Positions 2,949 through 7,743 of a stretch of 26,916 nt of DNA are shown piece after piece. The notes under the pieces were generated by a model. The model saw only the letters and a program-made list of their open reading frames with translations, did no database searches and was not told where the DNA came from. The stretch is from a virus. The translations under genes were made by a program, and so were the position numbers. The stretch is taken from positions 1-26,916 of the IMG/VR virus record IMGVR_UViG_3300000230_000028; one strand, given 5' to 3'. Numbering within the stretch: the first letter of the stretch is position 1; each line of letters begins with the position of its first letter.

Positions 2949-2981
2949 AAAAAATCCCCCTCTCCCGTGTGGGAAAGAGGG
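2949..2981 (-). terminator. Rho-independent terminator (leftward)
   Basis: On the minus strand a GC-rich stem (CCCTCT...CCC, loop ACAC, GGG...AGAGGG, 2958-2981) is followed within three bases by six T residues (plus-strand A run 2949-2954). This is a textbook intrinsic terminator about 65 nt beyond the stop of the 3046-3627 gene. It isolates that gene from the small-gene operon further left. Confidence 0.85.
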
Positions 2982-2991
2982 AATAAGAGTA

Positions 2992-3045: not shown

Positions 3046-3627
3046 TTAGACTTTAGCTGGCTTAGCTACTGGTGTCTTGAGCGATTCATCGAATGGGTCG
3101 AAGTCTGCTATTTTATCTACAGATTTGCTTGCAGGTTTAACAGTAGTCTCTACCTCGTCGATTTCAGGCTCAGCTTGCTTCTTGGCAACTCGTTTCATAT
3201 CAGGCGTATAGATGGCGTTGTTGTCGTTTACACGTTTCTGGATGAAGTCGTAACGTTGCATGGTCTTCTCTTCATTCAGGAATACGCTGATTCCATTGAG
3301 CTCAGCAGTATCACTAGACACCGTAAACTCCCCACCAGTACGCTCATTCTCATAAACTTCACCAGCCTCAAGCATACGTGATTCAGCAGGATTCCAAGTA
3401 ATCTCAGCTCCAACAAGATAGTCCAAATGCGGTGCATGCACTGTCTTGGTATCAAGCAAGCTCGTTAGAGTGCTGTATACTAGTCCAATACCATAATAGC
3501 ATGGATTACTAAAGCCTTCAATACTTAGAACTAAACGTTGTACACCATCCTCGTTAGGTAGTGATACACTTGCCTTCTTAATTAGGCTTTTACCAGTTGC
3601 GATTGTTTTCATGTCAATTGCGTTCAT
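3046..3627 (-). CDS. Putative single-stranded-DNA-binding-like protein
   Basis: 193 aa, soluble. Residues ~1-145 form a compact beta-rich domain (SVSLPNEDGVQRLVLSIEGF; GGEFTVSSDTAELNGISVFL). Then come a flexible Lys/Glu/Pro/Thr linker and an acidic segment (ADFDPFDESL) with a basic end (KTPVAKPAKV). A beta domain followed by a disordered linker and an acidic F-containing tail is the layout of SSB proteins, whose acidic tip recruits partners. Here the acidic motif is not at the very end and no OB-fold signature was identified, so this is tentative. The gene has its own promoter and terminator, and more G/C-ending codons than its neighbours, both suggesting high expression. Start chosen at 3627; an in-frame ATG five codons later is an alternative. 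Confidence 0.75.
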   Translation of the reverse strand: MNAIDMKTIATGKSLIKKASVSLPNEDGVQRLVLSIEGFSNPCYYGIGLVYSTLTSLLDTKTVHAPHLDYLVGAEITWNPAESRMLEAGEVYENERTGGEFTVSSDTAELNGISVFLNEEKTMQRYDFIQKRVNDNNAIYTPDMKRVAKKQAEPEIDEVETTVKPASKSVDKIADFDPFDESLKTPVAKPAKV

Positions 3628-3719: not shown

Positions 3720-3740
3720 TGATGGGGTCCGATTAGGGGA

Positions 3741-3885
3741 TAGTATTGCTTCATCTGTACATAGTATTACCCCACCTATACACGGGATAATATTACCTTA
3801 TCTGTACACGGTATAGTATTGCCCATCCGTACATGGTATAGTATTACTCTATCTACACGAGGATAGTATCACTCCATCTAAGTTT
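3741..3885. repeat. Degenerate 25-26 bp tandem repeat, about six copies
   Basis: TAGTATT-like starts occur at 3741, 3762, 3788, 3814, 3839 and 3864 (spacing 21, 26, 26, 25, 25). The consensus is TAGTATTRCYYYATCT followed by GTACACGGTA, with a palindromic TGTACA core in the better copies. A partial relative lies at about 3902-3928. The array lies immediately upstream of the promoter at 3712-3719, so it could be a set of protein-binding sites acting on that promoter. Confidence 0.75.
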
Positions 3886-4011
3886 AGCCTCTCAATCTGT
3901 AAGTATACTACCACGCTATCTATAAGTATAGTATCACTAGAGCTATCAAGTATATCAAGAGCTATAGTTATACTAGTAAATAAGCTATGGTATAAGAAAC
4001 TGTATGTAGGT

Positions 4012-4087
4012 TGGTGGCGTGGGAAGTGAAGGAAAGGAGAATACCCCGAAGGGTATTCGACTGACCGCACAATGACCCCAGCCACCA
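4012..4087 (-). other. GC-rich 76-bp stem structure with apical UUCG-capped hairpin
   Basis: An outer perfect 7-bp stem pairs TGGTGGC (4012-4018) with GCCACCA (4081-4087). After one bulged base it continues as TGGG (4020-4023) with CCCA (4077-4080). At the apex GAATACCC (4039-4046) pairs perfectly with GGGTATTC (4051-4058). Read on the minus strand the apex is C(UUCG)G, the exceptionally stable RNA tetraloop; on the plus strand it is CGAA. This strand preference favours an RNA function in leftward transcripts, though a DNA cruciform at an origin is also possible. It is much more GC-rich than the surroundings. Confidence 0.6.
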
Positions 4088-4111
4088 TAACACCTCATCC
4101 TTTAATATGCT

Positions 4112-4187
4112 GTTATAGTAGCTATAAAGTATTACAAGAGCTATTAAGTATCACAAGAGCTATATGCTATTACAAGAGCTAGTGGTA
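4112..4187. repeat. 19-bp iteron-like tandem repeat (ATTACAAGAGCTAT core)
   Basis: Three close copies start at 4131, 4150 and 4169, and a degenerate fourth (14/19 identical) at 4112, all exactly 19 bp apart. The shared core is ACAAGAGCTA. The same AGAGCTA core recurs at 3939 and 3958 (again 19 bp apart), and at 4218 and 4238. Exact phasing of about two helical turns places the sites on one face of the DNA, as in plasmid and phage iterons bound by initiator or repressor proteins. Confidence 0.7.
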
Positions 4188-4274
4188 TAGTAGGGGGAGT
4201 AGCTTCTACTTATTTAAAGAGCTAGGGGTGTTTCAGGAGAGCTATGGATATAGTAGAGGAAGAGCGATATATAT

Positions 4275-4342
4275 ACTAGAGTGGGCATTTTCCCCATTCT
4301 AATATATATACTCTCTACTAGAATGGGCATTTTGCCCTTTCT
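4275..4342. repeat. Two 26-bp copies of a hairpin-forming repeat
   Basis: The copies at 4275-4300 and 4317-4342 differ at only a few positions (ACTAGAGTGGGCATTTTCCC versus ACTAGAATGGGCATTTTGCC in their first 20 bases). Both are preceded by ATATATA-type sequence. The second contains a GGGCA-TTT-TGCCC stem and encodes the last residues of the gene ending at 4299; the first lies just beyond the stop. It looks like a local duplication at a gene end. Confidence 0.65.
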
Positions 4343-4808
4343 CCTGATTATAAAGTAGTTGGAATATCTTAAAATCTAGGTTATAAGAGTATCTAGCTGA
4401 TAATCTGGTACGTCTGGAGGATATGAATGGTAGTTTTCTAAGTCTTGTAAGTGGATCGTGCATACGTTCTGCGGACATGGTATCATCAAGTAATCCAACA
4501 TCTCTCCCTATTTGTTTAGCCTCTCGTACTATTACTCTATTTTTTGTCTGCATCATAAATTCTAAAATAAGGTGCATAACTATCATAGTTACTTTAGTAT
4601 CTCTATTACACATTATGAGCAATATTTTATTAAATGTATCTTGGTCTGATATTGTCTTTCTTTCTATTTGTAGGAAATCTGAAAGATCTTTATATGCAGG
4701 ATGTTTATCATATAAAAGTTCTTTAGTAATTTCTCCGTAAACTGGTCTGTCTTCTTCCTTTACAATATGGAGTATTGGTAGTTGGGTATTATATTTTGTA
4801 GTCCCCAT
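4299..4808 (-). CDS. Putative DNA-binding protein next to the repeat region
   Basis: 169 aa, basic, no membrane segment, predicted mostly helical. Residues ~70-95 form a hydrophobic helix (MIVMHLILEFMMQT). The region around residues 100-150 (AKQIGRDVGLLDD, then MHDPLTRLRKLPFISSRRTR) reads like helix-turn-helix followed by a basic wing. The C-terminal ~14 residues are encoded by the hairpin repeat at 4317-4342. No family is recognised. Because it abuts the iteron-like region and is basic, it may be the protein that binds those repeats (initiator or repressor); that is inference from position. Upstream is the terminator of the small RNA at 4820-4940, and no separate -7 box was found. Confidence 0.7.
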   Translation of the reverse strand: MGTTKYNTQLPILHIVKEEDRPVYGEITKELLYDKHPAYKDLSDFLQIERKTISDQDTFNKILLIMCNRDTKVTMIVMHLILEFMMQTKNRVIVREAKQIGRDVGLLDDTMSAERMHDPLTRLRKLPFISSRRTRLSARYSYNLDFKIFQLLYNQEKGQNAHSSREYIY

Positions 4809-4819
4809 AATAAGTATAT

Positions 4820-4940
4820 TTAAAATAAAAGCTCTAGCTTCCCCGAGGCGACGGTTCTGCTAGAGCTTTATTTAAGTTTGAGCAACTTAAAATGTCGTTA
4901 GGTTTTTGTGTGGCTCGCCTTCCATTCTCACTCAACCAAT
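4820..4940 (-). ncRNA. Candidate small RNA (~115-120 nt) with pseudoknot potential
   Basis: A complete transcription unit without a coding frame: promoter box at 4945-4952, a body of about 115 nt, and an intrinsic terminator at 4828-4869. The body contains a perfect 8-bp hairpin (TTTAAGTT/AACTTAAA, 4871-4891, loop of 5). The minus-strand sequence AGGCGA near its 5' end (4915-4920) is complementary to UCGCCU in the 20-nt terminator loop (4846-4851), allowing a 6-bp long-range pseudoknot. The unusually large, GC-rich loop suggests it is functional and not only a terminator. Role unknown; candidates are an antisense or sponge RNA or an RNA that binds a protein. No known family recognised. Confidence 0.55.
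4828..4869 (-). terminator. Intrinsic terminator with perfect 11-bp stem
   Basis: AAAGCTCTAGC (4828-4838) pairs perfectly with GCTAGAGCTTT (4859-4869). On the minus strand the stem is followed by TTTTATTTTA. The 20-nt loop is GC-rich. It ends the small RNA, and also any read-through from the gene at 4960-5184. Confidence 0.8.
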
Positions 4941-4944
4941 AATA

Positions 4945-4974
4945 CAAAGATAGAAAACTTTATAAATACTGCAA
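4945..4974 (-). promoter_or_regulatory. Bacteroidota-type promoter for the small RNA
   Basis: The minus strand has TTG at 4974-4972, then 19 nt, then TATCTTTG at 4952-4945, matching the TTTG / N~19 / TAnnTTTG pattern except for the first T of the -33 box. The -33 part lies in the last codons of the gene at 4960-5184. No coding gene starts within 130 nt downstream. Confidence 0.6.
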
Positions 4975-5184
4975 GAAGTCTTGTCCTGCTTTTTCTTTTT
5001 CTTTTTCTATCTTCTTAAGTTCTTCTGAAGAATCAATAGGTTCTGTACCTAATGACGTGTTTACAAGTTTAAACTCATCCTCGTTTACTTCAGTATTAAC
5101 TTCAAGTTCTTCTGTAGGAGTACTCCCACTAATATCTACATTATCAGTAGATTCAATTTTAGCTTTAACTTTAGCTTTTTCCAT
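4960..5184 (-). CDS. Small acidic, low-complexity protein
   Basis: 74 aa. It begins with a basic Lys/Ala stretch (MEKAKVKAKIE). Residues ~12-60 are rich in Glu, Thr, Ser and Asp (STPTEELEVNTEVNEDEF) and likely disordered, and the end is a charged helix (EELKKIEKEKEKAGQDFLQYL in part). No domain is recognised. Such proteins may be virion-associated, assembly cofactors or anti-host mimics, and the sequence does not say which. The end of the coding region contains the -33 element of the small-RNA promoter. Confidence 0.6.
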   Translation of the reverse strand: MEKAKVKAKIESTDNVDISGSTPTEELEVNTEVNEDEFKLVNTSLGTEPIDSSEELKKIEKEKEKAGQDFLQYL

Positions 5185-5250
5185 TTTAGTATAGTTTTAA
5201 TAGTTATTAAATAAAGAAAGGCCTAAGAGATAAGGACTTCCTGGATCTTT

Positions 5251-5316
5251 TTAAGCTAAATGGTTAGCATTTCTTGCCACCTTTTTTAGCTCCTTTTTTA
5301 CTGTTACCTTTTTCAT
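5251..5316 (-). CDS. Possible 21-aa basic microprotein
   Basis: ATG at 5316 followed by 21 codons to TAA at 5251-5253. The product begins MKKVTVKKELKKVARN and is strongly basic. It lies in the otherwise empty gap between 5184 and 5389, with an AT-rich leader like that of the neighbouring gene at 5184. It is too short for any statistical support, so it is a tentative call. Confidence 0.3.
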   Translation of the reverse strand: MKKVTVKKELKKVARNANHLA

Positions 5317-5343
5317 TGTAGTATATTAAATTAAAGACTTAAA

Positions 5344-5365
5344 TATACCTAAAAATATAGGTATA
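5344..5365 (-). terminator. AT-rich hairpin after the 5389-7272 gene group
   Basis: Perfect 8-bp inverted repeat TATACCTA (5344-5351) and TAGGTATA (5358-5365) with a 6-nt loop. On the minus strand it is followed by TTTAAGTCTTT. It sits 24 nt beyond the stop at 5389, a plausible but weak terminator for the three-gene group. Confidence 0.45.
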
Positions 5366-5388
5366 ATATACTTTTAGTACTATTTTTA

Positions 5389-5619
5389 TTACTTAAGGAA
5401 GTCTTGGTTTTCAGTTAGTAAAGTTGATAGGTTTGGGTAATATGTAAGGTTTTCCCTTTGGAGTAATACTACTTCTATTGGCCCTAGTAATTTAGTCCCA
5501 TCTGGAGATTCTATTGAGATAATTGTATCTCCATGGAATGATTTAAGTACCGCTTTATTGGAAGGAACTATGTCCGAACCTAAGTGGAATAAGCTGTTTG
5601 CATCTTTATAAAATAACAT
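5389..5619 (-). CDS. Stand-alone FYK-domain protein, copy 3
   Basis: 76 aa, a single domain recognisably paralogous to the 5659-5898 gene and to the first ~77 residues of the 5902-7272 gene. Shared positions include FYK at the start, IVP around residues 17-19, LKSFHGD, GPIEVVLLQRE, then TYYPNLSTLLTENQDFL. The pattern of alternating strands suggests a small beta-sandwich or beta-barrel. It contains no enzyme motif. By context it is a stand-alone version of the attachment or oligomerisation module of the large adhesin. No name is known to me for the domain. Confidence 0.75.
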   Translation of the reverse strand: MLFYKDANSLFHLGSDIVPSNKAVLKSFHGDTIISIESPDGTKLLGPIEVVLLQRENLTYYPNLSTLLTENQDFLK

Positions 5620-5658
5620 AGTTGTATGATTTATGGTTTAGGTATTAATCATTTTATT

Positions 5659-5898
5659 TTATATGGAACTTGGTAGAAAAAAGTCTTTATTAGTTGAGAT
5701 AATCTCATCAGAGTTTGAGTAAAAACTTCCATCCTGTTTCTTAACTAAGCTGGATTCTATTGGTCCAGCCATTATTGTACCATTTAGTAAAGTAAACGCT
5801 ATTTTATCTCCAGGATAAACTTTAAGCACCATAGAAGTATGAGGAACTATCATAGTGTCTAATATAAATATTCCGTATGAGTTTTTATAAAATTTCAT
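5659..5898 (-). CDS. Stand-alone FYK-domain protein, copy 2
   Basis: 79 aa, the middle of three tandem paralogues. It shares FYKN-x-x-G near the start, IVP, VLKVYPGDKI, GPIESSLVKKQDGSFY and ISTNKDFF with its neighbours. The upstream adhesin gene stops 3 nt before its ATG, and a ~39-nt gap precedes the next copy, so the three are almost certainly co-transcribed. Retention of the same conserved residues in all copies argues that each is functional. Whether it assembles with the adhesin (as a hetero-oligomer) or competes with it is unknown. Confidence 0.75.
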   Translation of the reverse strand: MKFYKNSYGIFILDTMIVPHTSMVLKVYPGDKIAFTLLNGTIMAGPIESSLVKKQDGSFYSNSDEIISTNKDFFLPSSI

Positions 5899-5901
5899 AA
5901 T

Positions 5902-7272
5902 TTAAGTTTTTATGGTTACACGACTTATACCTACTTCTCCACCTTCTTTAGTAAATTTTGTTGTATCAGGGGAATCCCCAATTATATCAGCAGTTACCGC
6001 ATTTGTTTCCCAGTTAAGATGTTTAATCCCTAAGTAAGTATTAGGTAATCCGAAAGCTACCCCTGATCCTGGAGGGTAGTAACCGATGAACTCAAAGTTA
6101 GGAATTACGGGATAAGCGAAGGTATACTTTTGTATTTCTTCTGGGCTTATGCAGATTGGCATTATAGAGCCTATAAATACATTTGGGTCTACTTCTCGTA
6201 GTGAGATTGAGTCAAAACTACATTTTCCTCCTACTCCTGCAGTCCCTGCATAAAAATTTAGAGAAGCTGTAGAACTTCCTGTATCTATCAATATATTGAA
6301 TATATTAATTGAGTTAGGGGTAAGTGGTACTTCAATAGAGGCTGCTCCAGATAAGGATACATAAGGCTCTCCTCGTTCCCAATCTCCTATAGTAACTGTA
6401 ATCTCATAAGTTTTTCCTGCTATAACCGTTTTATTTATTTGGGCCATAAAGTTATTAGTAACTGTATTCCCATAAACTTTTCCATTTGCCCAGCTATACC
6501 CAGTTTGTAATACCCACCCAGAAGTGTTAATATCAAAATTACCATTGTTAATCATTTCATTTCCTAAGTATTTACTTATTCTTTTATAATATGCAGCTCC
6601 TATTGTTAGTTCATAGGGTTCTATATCATTTGAGGTAGATCCCCAAAAAGCTGGAAAGTCTGTAGCTACTACTATTGCATTGTTTTTATTTTCGCCTATA
6701 TCCCAAATTGTAGACCCTTGTCCATGGTTAAATATTAATGAGGTTCCATCTGAAAAAGTAATACTTATTAAATATCCTATAGTTACATTAATCCTTTGAT
6801 CACTTATTTTTGTTGGTACTGAAGTTCCTATGTATGAGATAATTGTTGCCCCATTTAAGTTGTCAAAGGTTAAGTAAGTAGTACCATTAAAAGTACCTAC
6901 TTGCATAGTATTAATCTTTACATCATTTCCATTCCCAGTTTTATCCAAGAAGTAGAATTTACCATCAAGTTTCACTTCAGGTATAGTCCCAAATATATCT
7001 TGTACAAAGGTTTCTACTGGAATCCCTTTCCCATCTGGCCCCATAAAGAAATCAATATTCTCTGTAATAAAGCCTGTTACGGATAGATAGTAACTACCAT
7101 CTTCACGTTGTAAAAACAGTATCCTTATTGGCGGCATTATAACAGAGAAGTCTACTGAAGATCTGAGTTCTATTGCAGTTAAATCTCGATACACTTTCAG
7201 TATGGATTTACCAGGAGATACATAGTTGTCCCCTATCTTGTATAACCCATCAGTATTTTTATAAAAGTCCAT
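5902..7272 (-). CDS. Putative receptor-binding adhesin with carbohydrate-binding-like domain
   Basis: 456 aa. Residues 1-77 are the FYK domain shared with the two following genes (MDFYKNTDGLYKIG; FLQREDGSYY; ITENIDFF). A short MGPDGKGIP linker leads to a beta-rich LamG/concanavalin-like stretch (residues ~105-215) containing DKTGNGNDVKI, the usual opening of such domains. Residues ~241-361 resemble carbohydrate-binding jelly-roll modules of the CBM4/9 type: NNGNFDINTSGW, a conserved internal TYEITVTIG strand, and FDSISLREV at the end. The C-terminal ~90 residues are unassigned. It is likely an extracellular or virion-borne glycan binder, encoded on the strand opposite to the virion operon. 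It is the first gene after the leftward promoter at 7290-7297. Confidence 0.75.
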   Translation of the reverse strand: MDFYKNTDGLYKIGDNYVSPGKSILKVYRDLTAIELRSSVDFSVIMPPIRILFLQREDGSYYLSVTGFITENIDFFMGPDGKGIPVETFVQDIFGTIPEVKLDGKFYFLDKTGNGNDVKINTMQVGTFNGTTYLTFDNLNGATIISYIGTSVPTKISDQRINVTIGYLISITFSDGTSLIFNHGQGSTIWDIGENKNNAIVVATDFPAFWGSTSNDIEPYELTIGAAYYKRISKYLGNEMINNGNFDINTSGWVLQTGYSWANGKVYGNTVTNNFMAQINKTVIAGKTYEITVTIGDWERGEPYVSLSGAASIEVPLTPNSINIFNILIDTGSSTASLNFYAGTAGVGGKCSFDSISLREVDPNVFIGSIMPICISPEEIQKYTFAYPVIPNFEFIGYYPPGSGVAFGLPNTYLGIKHLNWETNAVTADIIGDSPDTTKFTKEGGEVGISRVTIKT

Positions 7273-7289
7273 AGAATAAAATATTTAAT

Positions 7290-7297
7290 CAAAGATA
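7290..7297 (-). promoter_or_regulatory. Leftward -7 box for the adhesin group
   Basis: The minus strand reads TATCTTTG, an exact TAnnTTTG match, 18 nt upstream of the ATG at 7272. A convincing -33 element is not seen. It forms the leftward half of a divergent promoter region with 7392-7421. Confidence 0.6.
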
Positions 7298-7391
7298 CTA
7301 CTTTTTATATAAACATATAGGAATTAGATATATTTGAAGTTTAGCTTATATACTCGATTTTCTTTATTATTTAAAATATTACTTAAAAAGA

Positions 7392-7421
7392 TTTGGTTTT
7401 TATAATTTATAAGTATATTTG
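7392..7421 (+). promoter_or_regulatory. Rightward promoter at the head of the virion arm
   Basis: TTTG at 7392-7395, then 18 nt, then TATATTTG at 7414-7421: the full Bacteroidota -33/-7 pattern. The first ATG of the rightward arm is at 7438, implying a leader of about 10 nt. This is the best promoter match in the window. Confidence 0.75.
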
Positions 7422-7437
7422 TATAAAAAATATAAAC

Positions 7438-7743
7438 ATGGATACCCCATTTGTTAAACTATATATTGGAAATCTTAATGTAATAACTAAGCTCTCTCCT
7501 ACTGCAAAGAATACGCTATTAGGGATGTTGTACTATCTGGATGAAGATAATACTATTGATATTAGTATTCACCGAAGAGAACAAATGCTGCATTTACTGG
7601 ACATAAAGAAGCAAACTTTGGCTAATGGACTTGTTGAATTACAGAAAGCTGGAGTTATCAGTAGGATAGGGCAAAGTTATTACATGTTAGTTCCCTCATT
7701 TATAGAAAAACCAAAAGATAATGATTATAAACTTGAAAGTTAA
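7438..7743 (+). CDS. Winged-helix DNA-binding protein (RepL-like pattern)
   Basis: 101 aa from the ATG at 7438; the frame is open further upstream, but that part lies inside the promoter. The order of elements is that of a compact winged-helix domain: a helix LSPTAKNTLLGMLYYLDED, the strand-helix ISIHRREQMLHLLDI, the recognition-helix region KKQTLANGLVELQKAGVISR, and a beta wing IGQSYYMLVPSF. The same order and the ISR-x-G-x-x-Y-M-L ending are found in replication or transcription regulators of the RepL/plasmid-initiator type in Bacteroidota. As first gene behind a strong promoter it is a good candidate for the regulator of the late arm. Target unknown. Confidence 0.75.
   Translation: MDTPFVKLYIGNLNVITKLSPTAKNTLLGMLYYLDEDNTIDISIHRREQMLHLLDIKKQTLANGLVELQKAGVISRIGQSYYMLVPSFIEKPKDNDYKLES

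Follow-up and report, generated by a model that had tools for sequence, protein, structure and literature searches.

Two serial hairpins on the minus strand of a crAss-like phage record carry complementary apical loops, and the same architecture recurs at the syntenic position in three relatives (L002, L009 and L010), each time immediately ahead of a wHTH-like gene that is highly divergent. From comparison of the four loci, we consider it very likely that this kissing-loop structure is real. The element is probably an RNA control element and not the free-standing small RNA that had been predicted here, and its best reading, which we regard as reasonably likely, is that of a leader RNA acting in cis on the wHTH-like gene.

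Promoter and hairpins of the window RNA

The window, a 26.9-kb virus record, encodes a terminase, a portal protein and a major head protein of crAss-like type; among named phages, Cellulophaga phage phi14:2 (Crassvirales, Steigviridae) is its best-covered relative at the DNA level. The element occupies ~4939 to 4822 of the minus strand, between one ORF that ends at 4960 and another that starts at 4808. The upstream gene (4960-5184, minus strand) encodes a small acidic protein of 74 aa that is syntenic in L002, and the downstream gene (4299-4808, minus strand) encodes a 169-aa winged-helix-like protein, a putative replication initiator or regulator. Elsewhere on the minus strand of the window, three adjoining genes (5389-5619, 5659-5898 and 5902-7272) open with the same type of module (FYKN..G...I...V.P.KS.LKVY), which is apparently duplicated; the largest of them (5902-7272) runs on into a 456-aa protein for which we found no database match.

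A Bacteroidota-type promoter (4945-4974, minus strand) precedes the first hairpin. Its TTG (4974-4972), 19-nt spacing and TATCTTTG (4952-4945) exactly match the consensus, as the original prediction stated; the sigma-ABfr consensus is TAnnTTTG, with TTTG near -33 (PMC7366714). We counted 7 copies of the composite TTG-N18-21-TAnnTTTG in the window, where shuffles averaged 2.2 (maximum of 5 in 100 shuffles); this is above chance and not decisive. The promoter TTG falls within the 3' end of the upstream ORF, and the predicted range, said to be free of ORFs, slightly overlaps this gene; the rest of the range is indeed without a separate ORF. Another promoter of this kind, TTG/TATATTTG, stands at the start of the rightward arm of the window (7392-7421, plus strand), and at the matching place of a distant crAss-like phage, L038 (~3489-3550), there is a stretch of ~60 bases that is similar across many crAss-like contigs.

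The MFE fold of the window RNA contains a 5' hairpin, P1 (4901-4937, minus strand; GGUU..GUG..UGG[AAGGCGAG]CCA..CAC..AACC, with inner pairs 4924-4922/4913-4911), whose loop holds the 5' kissing segment AGGCGA. P2, a terminator-like hairpin (4828-4869, minus strand), consists of 11 perfect pairs (AAAGCUCUAGC with GCUAGAGCUUU) around a 20-nt loop, AGAACCG-UCGCCU-CGGGGAA, and is directly followed by UAUUUUAAAU; the stem, loop and T-tail described earlier are thus real in the window. The U-rich tract after P2 (4814-4830, minus strand) doubles as an A/U-rich translation initiation region. Within the P2 loop, the 3' kissing segment UCGCCU forms an apical loop closed by an inner CCG/CGG helix, and this 3-bp helix belongs to the conserved unit. 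The two kissing segments, AGGCGA (4920-4915) and UCGCCU (4851-4846), are exact complements, as had been claimed. Because AGGCGA sits in the P1 loop, the interaction would be one of kissing loops, and both segments are exposed as hairpin loops in single-sequence folds (the MFE fold for the window, the centroid fold for L002). A perfect 8-bp internal hairpin (4871-4891, minus strand) was also predicted and is present in the window MFE fold, but it is absent from L002, L009 and L010, and we dropped it as part of the conserved unit.

Intrinsic terminators normally have small loops, and a 20-nt GC-rich loop complementary to the 5' part of its own RNA is unusual, as was pointed out in the original prediction. 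P2 has the G+C-rich stem and following U-run of an intrinsic terminator, but its loop of 20-22 nt with an inner 3-bp helix departs from the short loop of that class. The U-run is good in the window and L002 and interrupted in L009/L010 (UUUUCAAUUUU), which makes for a weak terminator there. A strong canonical terminator after the 3046-3627 gene of the window (2955-2983, minus strand; 12 pairs, 4-nt loop, T6) contrasts with the large-loop P2.

The whole window RNA is more stable than its shuffles (z = -2.7). A loop/upstream match like that of the window arose by chance in 9% of shuffles when scored by length and in 3% when scored by stacking energy, and across the window and L002 the chance of such a single-sequence match is 3-16%. 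Since the single-sequence match is weak (chance of 3-9% in the window), the case is carried by the comparative evidence.

Conservation and compensatory change

We reached L002 via its terminase (83% identical) and L009 and L010 via a conserved 175-aa neighbor. A protein search with the downstream gene itself returned no relatives, and neither blastn with the region nor tblastn with the neighboring genes found the element in named phages. From 3750 to 7374 the window shows no detectable DNA similarity to L002; the L002 hairpin is enclosed by homologs of the upstream gene (E 2e-9) and of the downstream gene (L002 2727-3140; 24% identity, E 4e-5). The L002 5' hairpin, AAGC[AGGCAC]GCUU, starts right at the upstream stop codon; the P2 that follows has another stem (CCCCAACU/AGUUGGGG), which encloses the loop AAGUACCG-GUGCCU-CGGGAAC. 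L009 and L010 contain CUUAUC[15-nt loop]GAUAAG and then a 15-bp hairpin with a 22-nt loop. The letters of the P2 stem are therefore entirely different yet perfectly paired in L002 and in L009/L010, and in all four phages exactly 7 loop nt separate the 3' kissing segment from the P2 3' arm. The promoter did not share this conservation: its exact form is missing in the relatives, with only degenerate versions at the matching place in L009/L010 (TACTTTTA/TAATTTTA) and no match ahead of P1 in the L002 leader.

The kissing pair AGGCGA/UCGCCU of the window is AGGCAC/GUGCCU in L002, which amounts to two double compensatory changes. Within L009/L010, CCCUCAC/GUGAGGG compares with CCUUCGC/GCGAAGG, again with two double changes (C-G to U-A and A-U to G-C), both of them in the kissing helix. 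In an unassisted MAFFT alignment of the window and L002, all 12 named pairs form in both sequences and two P1 pairs also change on both sides, whereas sliding the partners by 1-3 columns gave ~20-50% paired cells and no double change. All 28 named pairs form in both L009 and L010, whose P2 stems differ by G-U changes. In a simple substitution simulation, the probability that the kiss is kept with at least two double changes by chance was ~1e-3 and 5e-4 in the two comparisons. Shuffles reached the observed value in 26 of 500 cases (window/L002) and 132 of 500 (L009/L010), two-row alignments giving little power, and the covariation evidence comes from just four instances, equivalent to two independent comparisons.

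As the loop letters are replaced yet remain paired, and as the 7-nt register is fixed in 4/4 phages, these data argue for a conserved kissing-loop element. The earlier proposal of a structured RNA with long-range pairing between its 5' region and the terminator loop is borne out in this respect, with compensatory changes in the three relatives, and on these alignments we take the fold, the kissing pair and the position upstream of the gene to be established by comparison.

The L009 and L010 leaders are 88% identical; their alignment breaks down at the start codon, and phmmer detected no mutual match between the downstream proteins. That the leaders are so similar despite dissimilar downstream proteins indicates that selection acts on the leader. 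The two loci (L009 5695-6210 and L010 158-634) carry the same IMG/VR sample number, and the shared leader in front of unrelated-looking genes suggests gene replacement behind a conserved leader.

To our first scan we assigned hairpins of at least 8 pairs (at most 1 mismatch) with a 14-26 nt loop, a loop/upstream match of at least 6, a U-rich tail and a nearby ATG. It covered 91 sequences (1.19 Mb), mostly crAss-like and most from the terminase search, and with an unbroken stem required it returned only the four leader loci. A second descriptor, which used the register and P1 and made no use of the start codon, was applied to 2.3 Mb and returned three of the four loci (the P1 inner stem of the window lies below its cut-off) and one extra place, in L038; the control gave 15 raw matches in 52 Mb of shuffled sequence. 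In the scanned data, the element is confined to a clade with terminases at least ~72% identical.

The extra place in L038 (3404, plus strand) fits the descriptor, but we did not count it, as there is no listed ORF at that start and the hit is near the expected false-positive rate. The hairpin in this intergenic stretch (3360-3444, plus strand) has a 20-24 nt loop in which CCACCCC matches an upstream GGGGTGG hairpin loop, and it may be a candidate or chance. L003 (64-66% terL) has another gene arrangement and no element by eye or scan. L032 (55% terL) was set aside as lacking the element; the complementary repeats present there precede the likely promoter and have the appearance of DNA repeats. 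Four distant terL loci from a search of genome contigs were also without the element, and a DNA pattern built from the L009/L010 loop matched only L009/L010 and unrelated sequences. A known Rfam family, for which the original prediction suggested a check, did not emerge: Rfam 15 gave only chance-level matches at gathering and relaxed thresholds, none at or above the gathering threshold. No description of the element was found in the searchable open literature, which covers few subscription journals.

The downstream gene and adjoining repeats

In 4/4 phages, only 15-20 nt separate the end of P2 from the AUG of the following gene, which lies on the same strand. The position of the element is equally conserved, upstream of a wHTH-like gene slot in all four, and homology among the proteins encoded there is weak. 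The four proteins are short and divergent. In the structural model of the L002 protein, a C-terminal winged helix is predicted with fair confidence (pLDDT ~71-88), with weak matches to ArsR/MarR-type folds, and the model of the window protein is of low confidence with the same order of elements. Profile matches of the downstream proteins are all weak; those of the L002 and L010 proteins point to DnaD-like loaders and replication initiation proteins.

A repeat search identified iteron-like direct repeats with 19-nt and 21-26-nt spacings after the downstream gene of the window (3737-4279). Direct-repeat clusters with ~19-26 nt spacing also follow the wHTH-like gene in L002 (2514-2584) and L009 (5614-5688), with a different sequence in each phage, and possibly represent iterons or operators. 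A cluster of this spacing with its own sequence is found in L003 as well (5435-5636). The GC skew of the window changes sign at ~7 kb. The succession of gene and iteron-like repeats near the GC-skew switch suggests, by resemblance, a plasmid-like initiator/regulator cassette, and since the repeats follow the downstream gene, it is plausible that the element controls both this gene and its repeat region.

Among the first genes of the rightward arm there are sub-threshold matches to plasmid RepL (Pfam PF05732) in the window (7393-7743, E 0.02) and L009 (6637-6939, E 0.0075), which may be a further sign of plasmid-like replication genes. The crAss-like phage p-crAssphage carries repL genes (PMC10136315), and a phage-plasmid lifestyle with plasmid-like maintenance has been reported for it, according to work cited in PMC11844821.

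A cis-acting leader and its alternatives

The 15-20 nt between P2 and the start codon hold no promoter, so the mRNA of the downstream gene must carry or pass P2. Passage of the mRNA through P2 favors a cis-acting leader, either an attenuator or a translational switch, over a stand-alone sRNA. The L002 locus, where P1 lies at the upstream stop codon and has no promoter match, suits an intra-operon control element. Given a U-tract that is good in two phages and interrupted in the other two, we entertain both termination and translational control.

We infer the mode of action, namely the direction of regulation, its level (transcription or translation), its trigger and a role of the protein as an initiator or regulator acting on the adjoining repeats, along the following lines. 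Transcription would start just upstream of P1, P1 and P2 would fold as the RNA emerges, and the apical loops would kiss via 6-7 Watson-Crick pairs, giving a compact fold whose end lies 15-20 nt short of the start codon. As P2 is shaped like an intrinsic terminator, the folded state would most likely lower downstream expression, through an end to transcription in the U-tract or through blocked 30S binding, and opening of the kissing pair or of P2 would raise it. The terminated RNA of ~115-120 nt would be a by-product that might use the same loops to act in trans as well. We identified neither an alternative anti-terminator fold nor a ligand site in the leader.

A dedicated small RNA gene, as originally predicted, would produce a trans-acting RNA ended by P2, with the P1 and P2 loops as seeds that also kiss closed and the downstream gene expressed by read-through only. 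The window promoter just upstream of P1, the terminator-like P2 with its U-tract and a size typical of Bacteroides intergenic sRNAs with a TSS and terminator (PMC7366714) are in keeping with this. However, the element is tied to the same kind of downstream gene at the same short distance in 4/4 phages, which would leave that gene promoterless, with no room for another promoter; the L002 RNA, lacking a promoter match before P1, would lie inside an operon; and the loop letters vary freely among close relatives, which would not be expected of a seed that recognizes a conserved target. We find a stand-alone sRNA unlikely and a 5' leader simpler; any short RNA that stops at P2 would then be the attenuated product of this leader. 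The loops could also pair between two molecules rather than within one, and an autoregulatory variant modeled on phage P4/P1 immunity RNAs or plasmid counter-transcripts, in which the terminated RNA acts in trans on fresh leaders and its P2 loop pairs with the P1 loop of another molecule to promote termination before the replication gene, would draw on the self-complementary loops, the terminator-like P2, the possible initiator gene, the iteron-like repeats and the weak replication-initiator profile matches. Sequence alone cannot separate this trans model from the cis model, but intramolecular pairing is expected to win kinetically, and the opposite strand within the leaders has no conserved TTG/TAnnTTTG promoter for an antisense RNA; we rate it a little less probable than the stand-alone sRNA.

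An ordinary intergenic terminator of the upstream gene with a coincidental loop match would account for the terminator-like P2 stems and for a match within the chance range given above, but would leave unexplained the compensatory changes in two independent pairs and the identical loop register, and we judge it improbable. We give even less weight to inverted repeats that act as DNA, as an operator or origin structure: the region lies near the GC-skew switch and beside repeats, yet it is hard to see what a distant kissing match of 6-7 nt would do in DNA, and the G-U changes tolerated in the L009/L010 P2 stem fit RNA.

The favored cis-acting leader has partial counterparts among known systems. 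Plasmids of the pT181 and pIP501/pAMbeta1 types have transcription attenuators ahead of their rep genes, and here too a terminator-like leader hairpin is found shortly before a putative replication gene begins. Unlike those systems, the element showed no antisense RNA promoter or alternative anti-terminator; its control element would be a kissing pair within the leader, and its downstream gene is only tentatively rep. The phage P4 CI and P1 c4 immunity RNAs are short RNAs from replication-operon leaders with complementary leader segments and premature termination. The element resembles them in a putative short leader RNA, complementary segments in the same leader and putative premature termination, and differs in having two complementary apical loops, one of them the terminator loop, and no sequence relation. 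As in riboswitches built on loop-loop contacts, such as the purine riboswitch, and in the kissing-loop RNAs RNAI/RNAII and TAR-TAR*, apical loop segments of 6-7 nt are fully paired together, but the element consists of two serial hairpins without a closing multi-branch helix. Bacteroides GibS-type intergenic or 5'-UTR-derived sRNAs (PMC7366714) share the host-type promoter seen in the window, the intrinsic-terminator-like 3' end and a similar length, whereas the element is phage-borne, abuts a gene start, has kissing loops and matches no Rfam family.

In the searchable literature there is hardly any description of regulatory RNAs from crAss-like phages, and it is still an open question how these phages manage to persist without lysogeny. 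A kissing terminator loop would be an unusual coupling of a 5' hairpin to termination or initiation. Tentatively, the element may represent a new class of phage riboregulator in which a terminator-like loop kisses an upstream loop and sets how much is made of a replication initiator or lifestyle regulator encoded next to an iteron-type origin, providing plasmid-style copy or latency control in some crAss-like phages. If this is true, a conserved switch in the leader of a putative initiator gene that adjoins origin-like repeats would constitute a concrete, testable control point.
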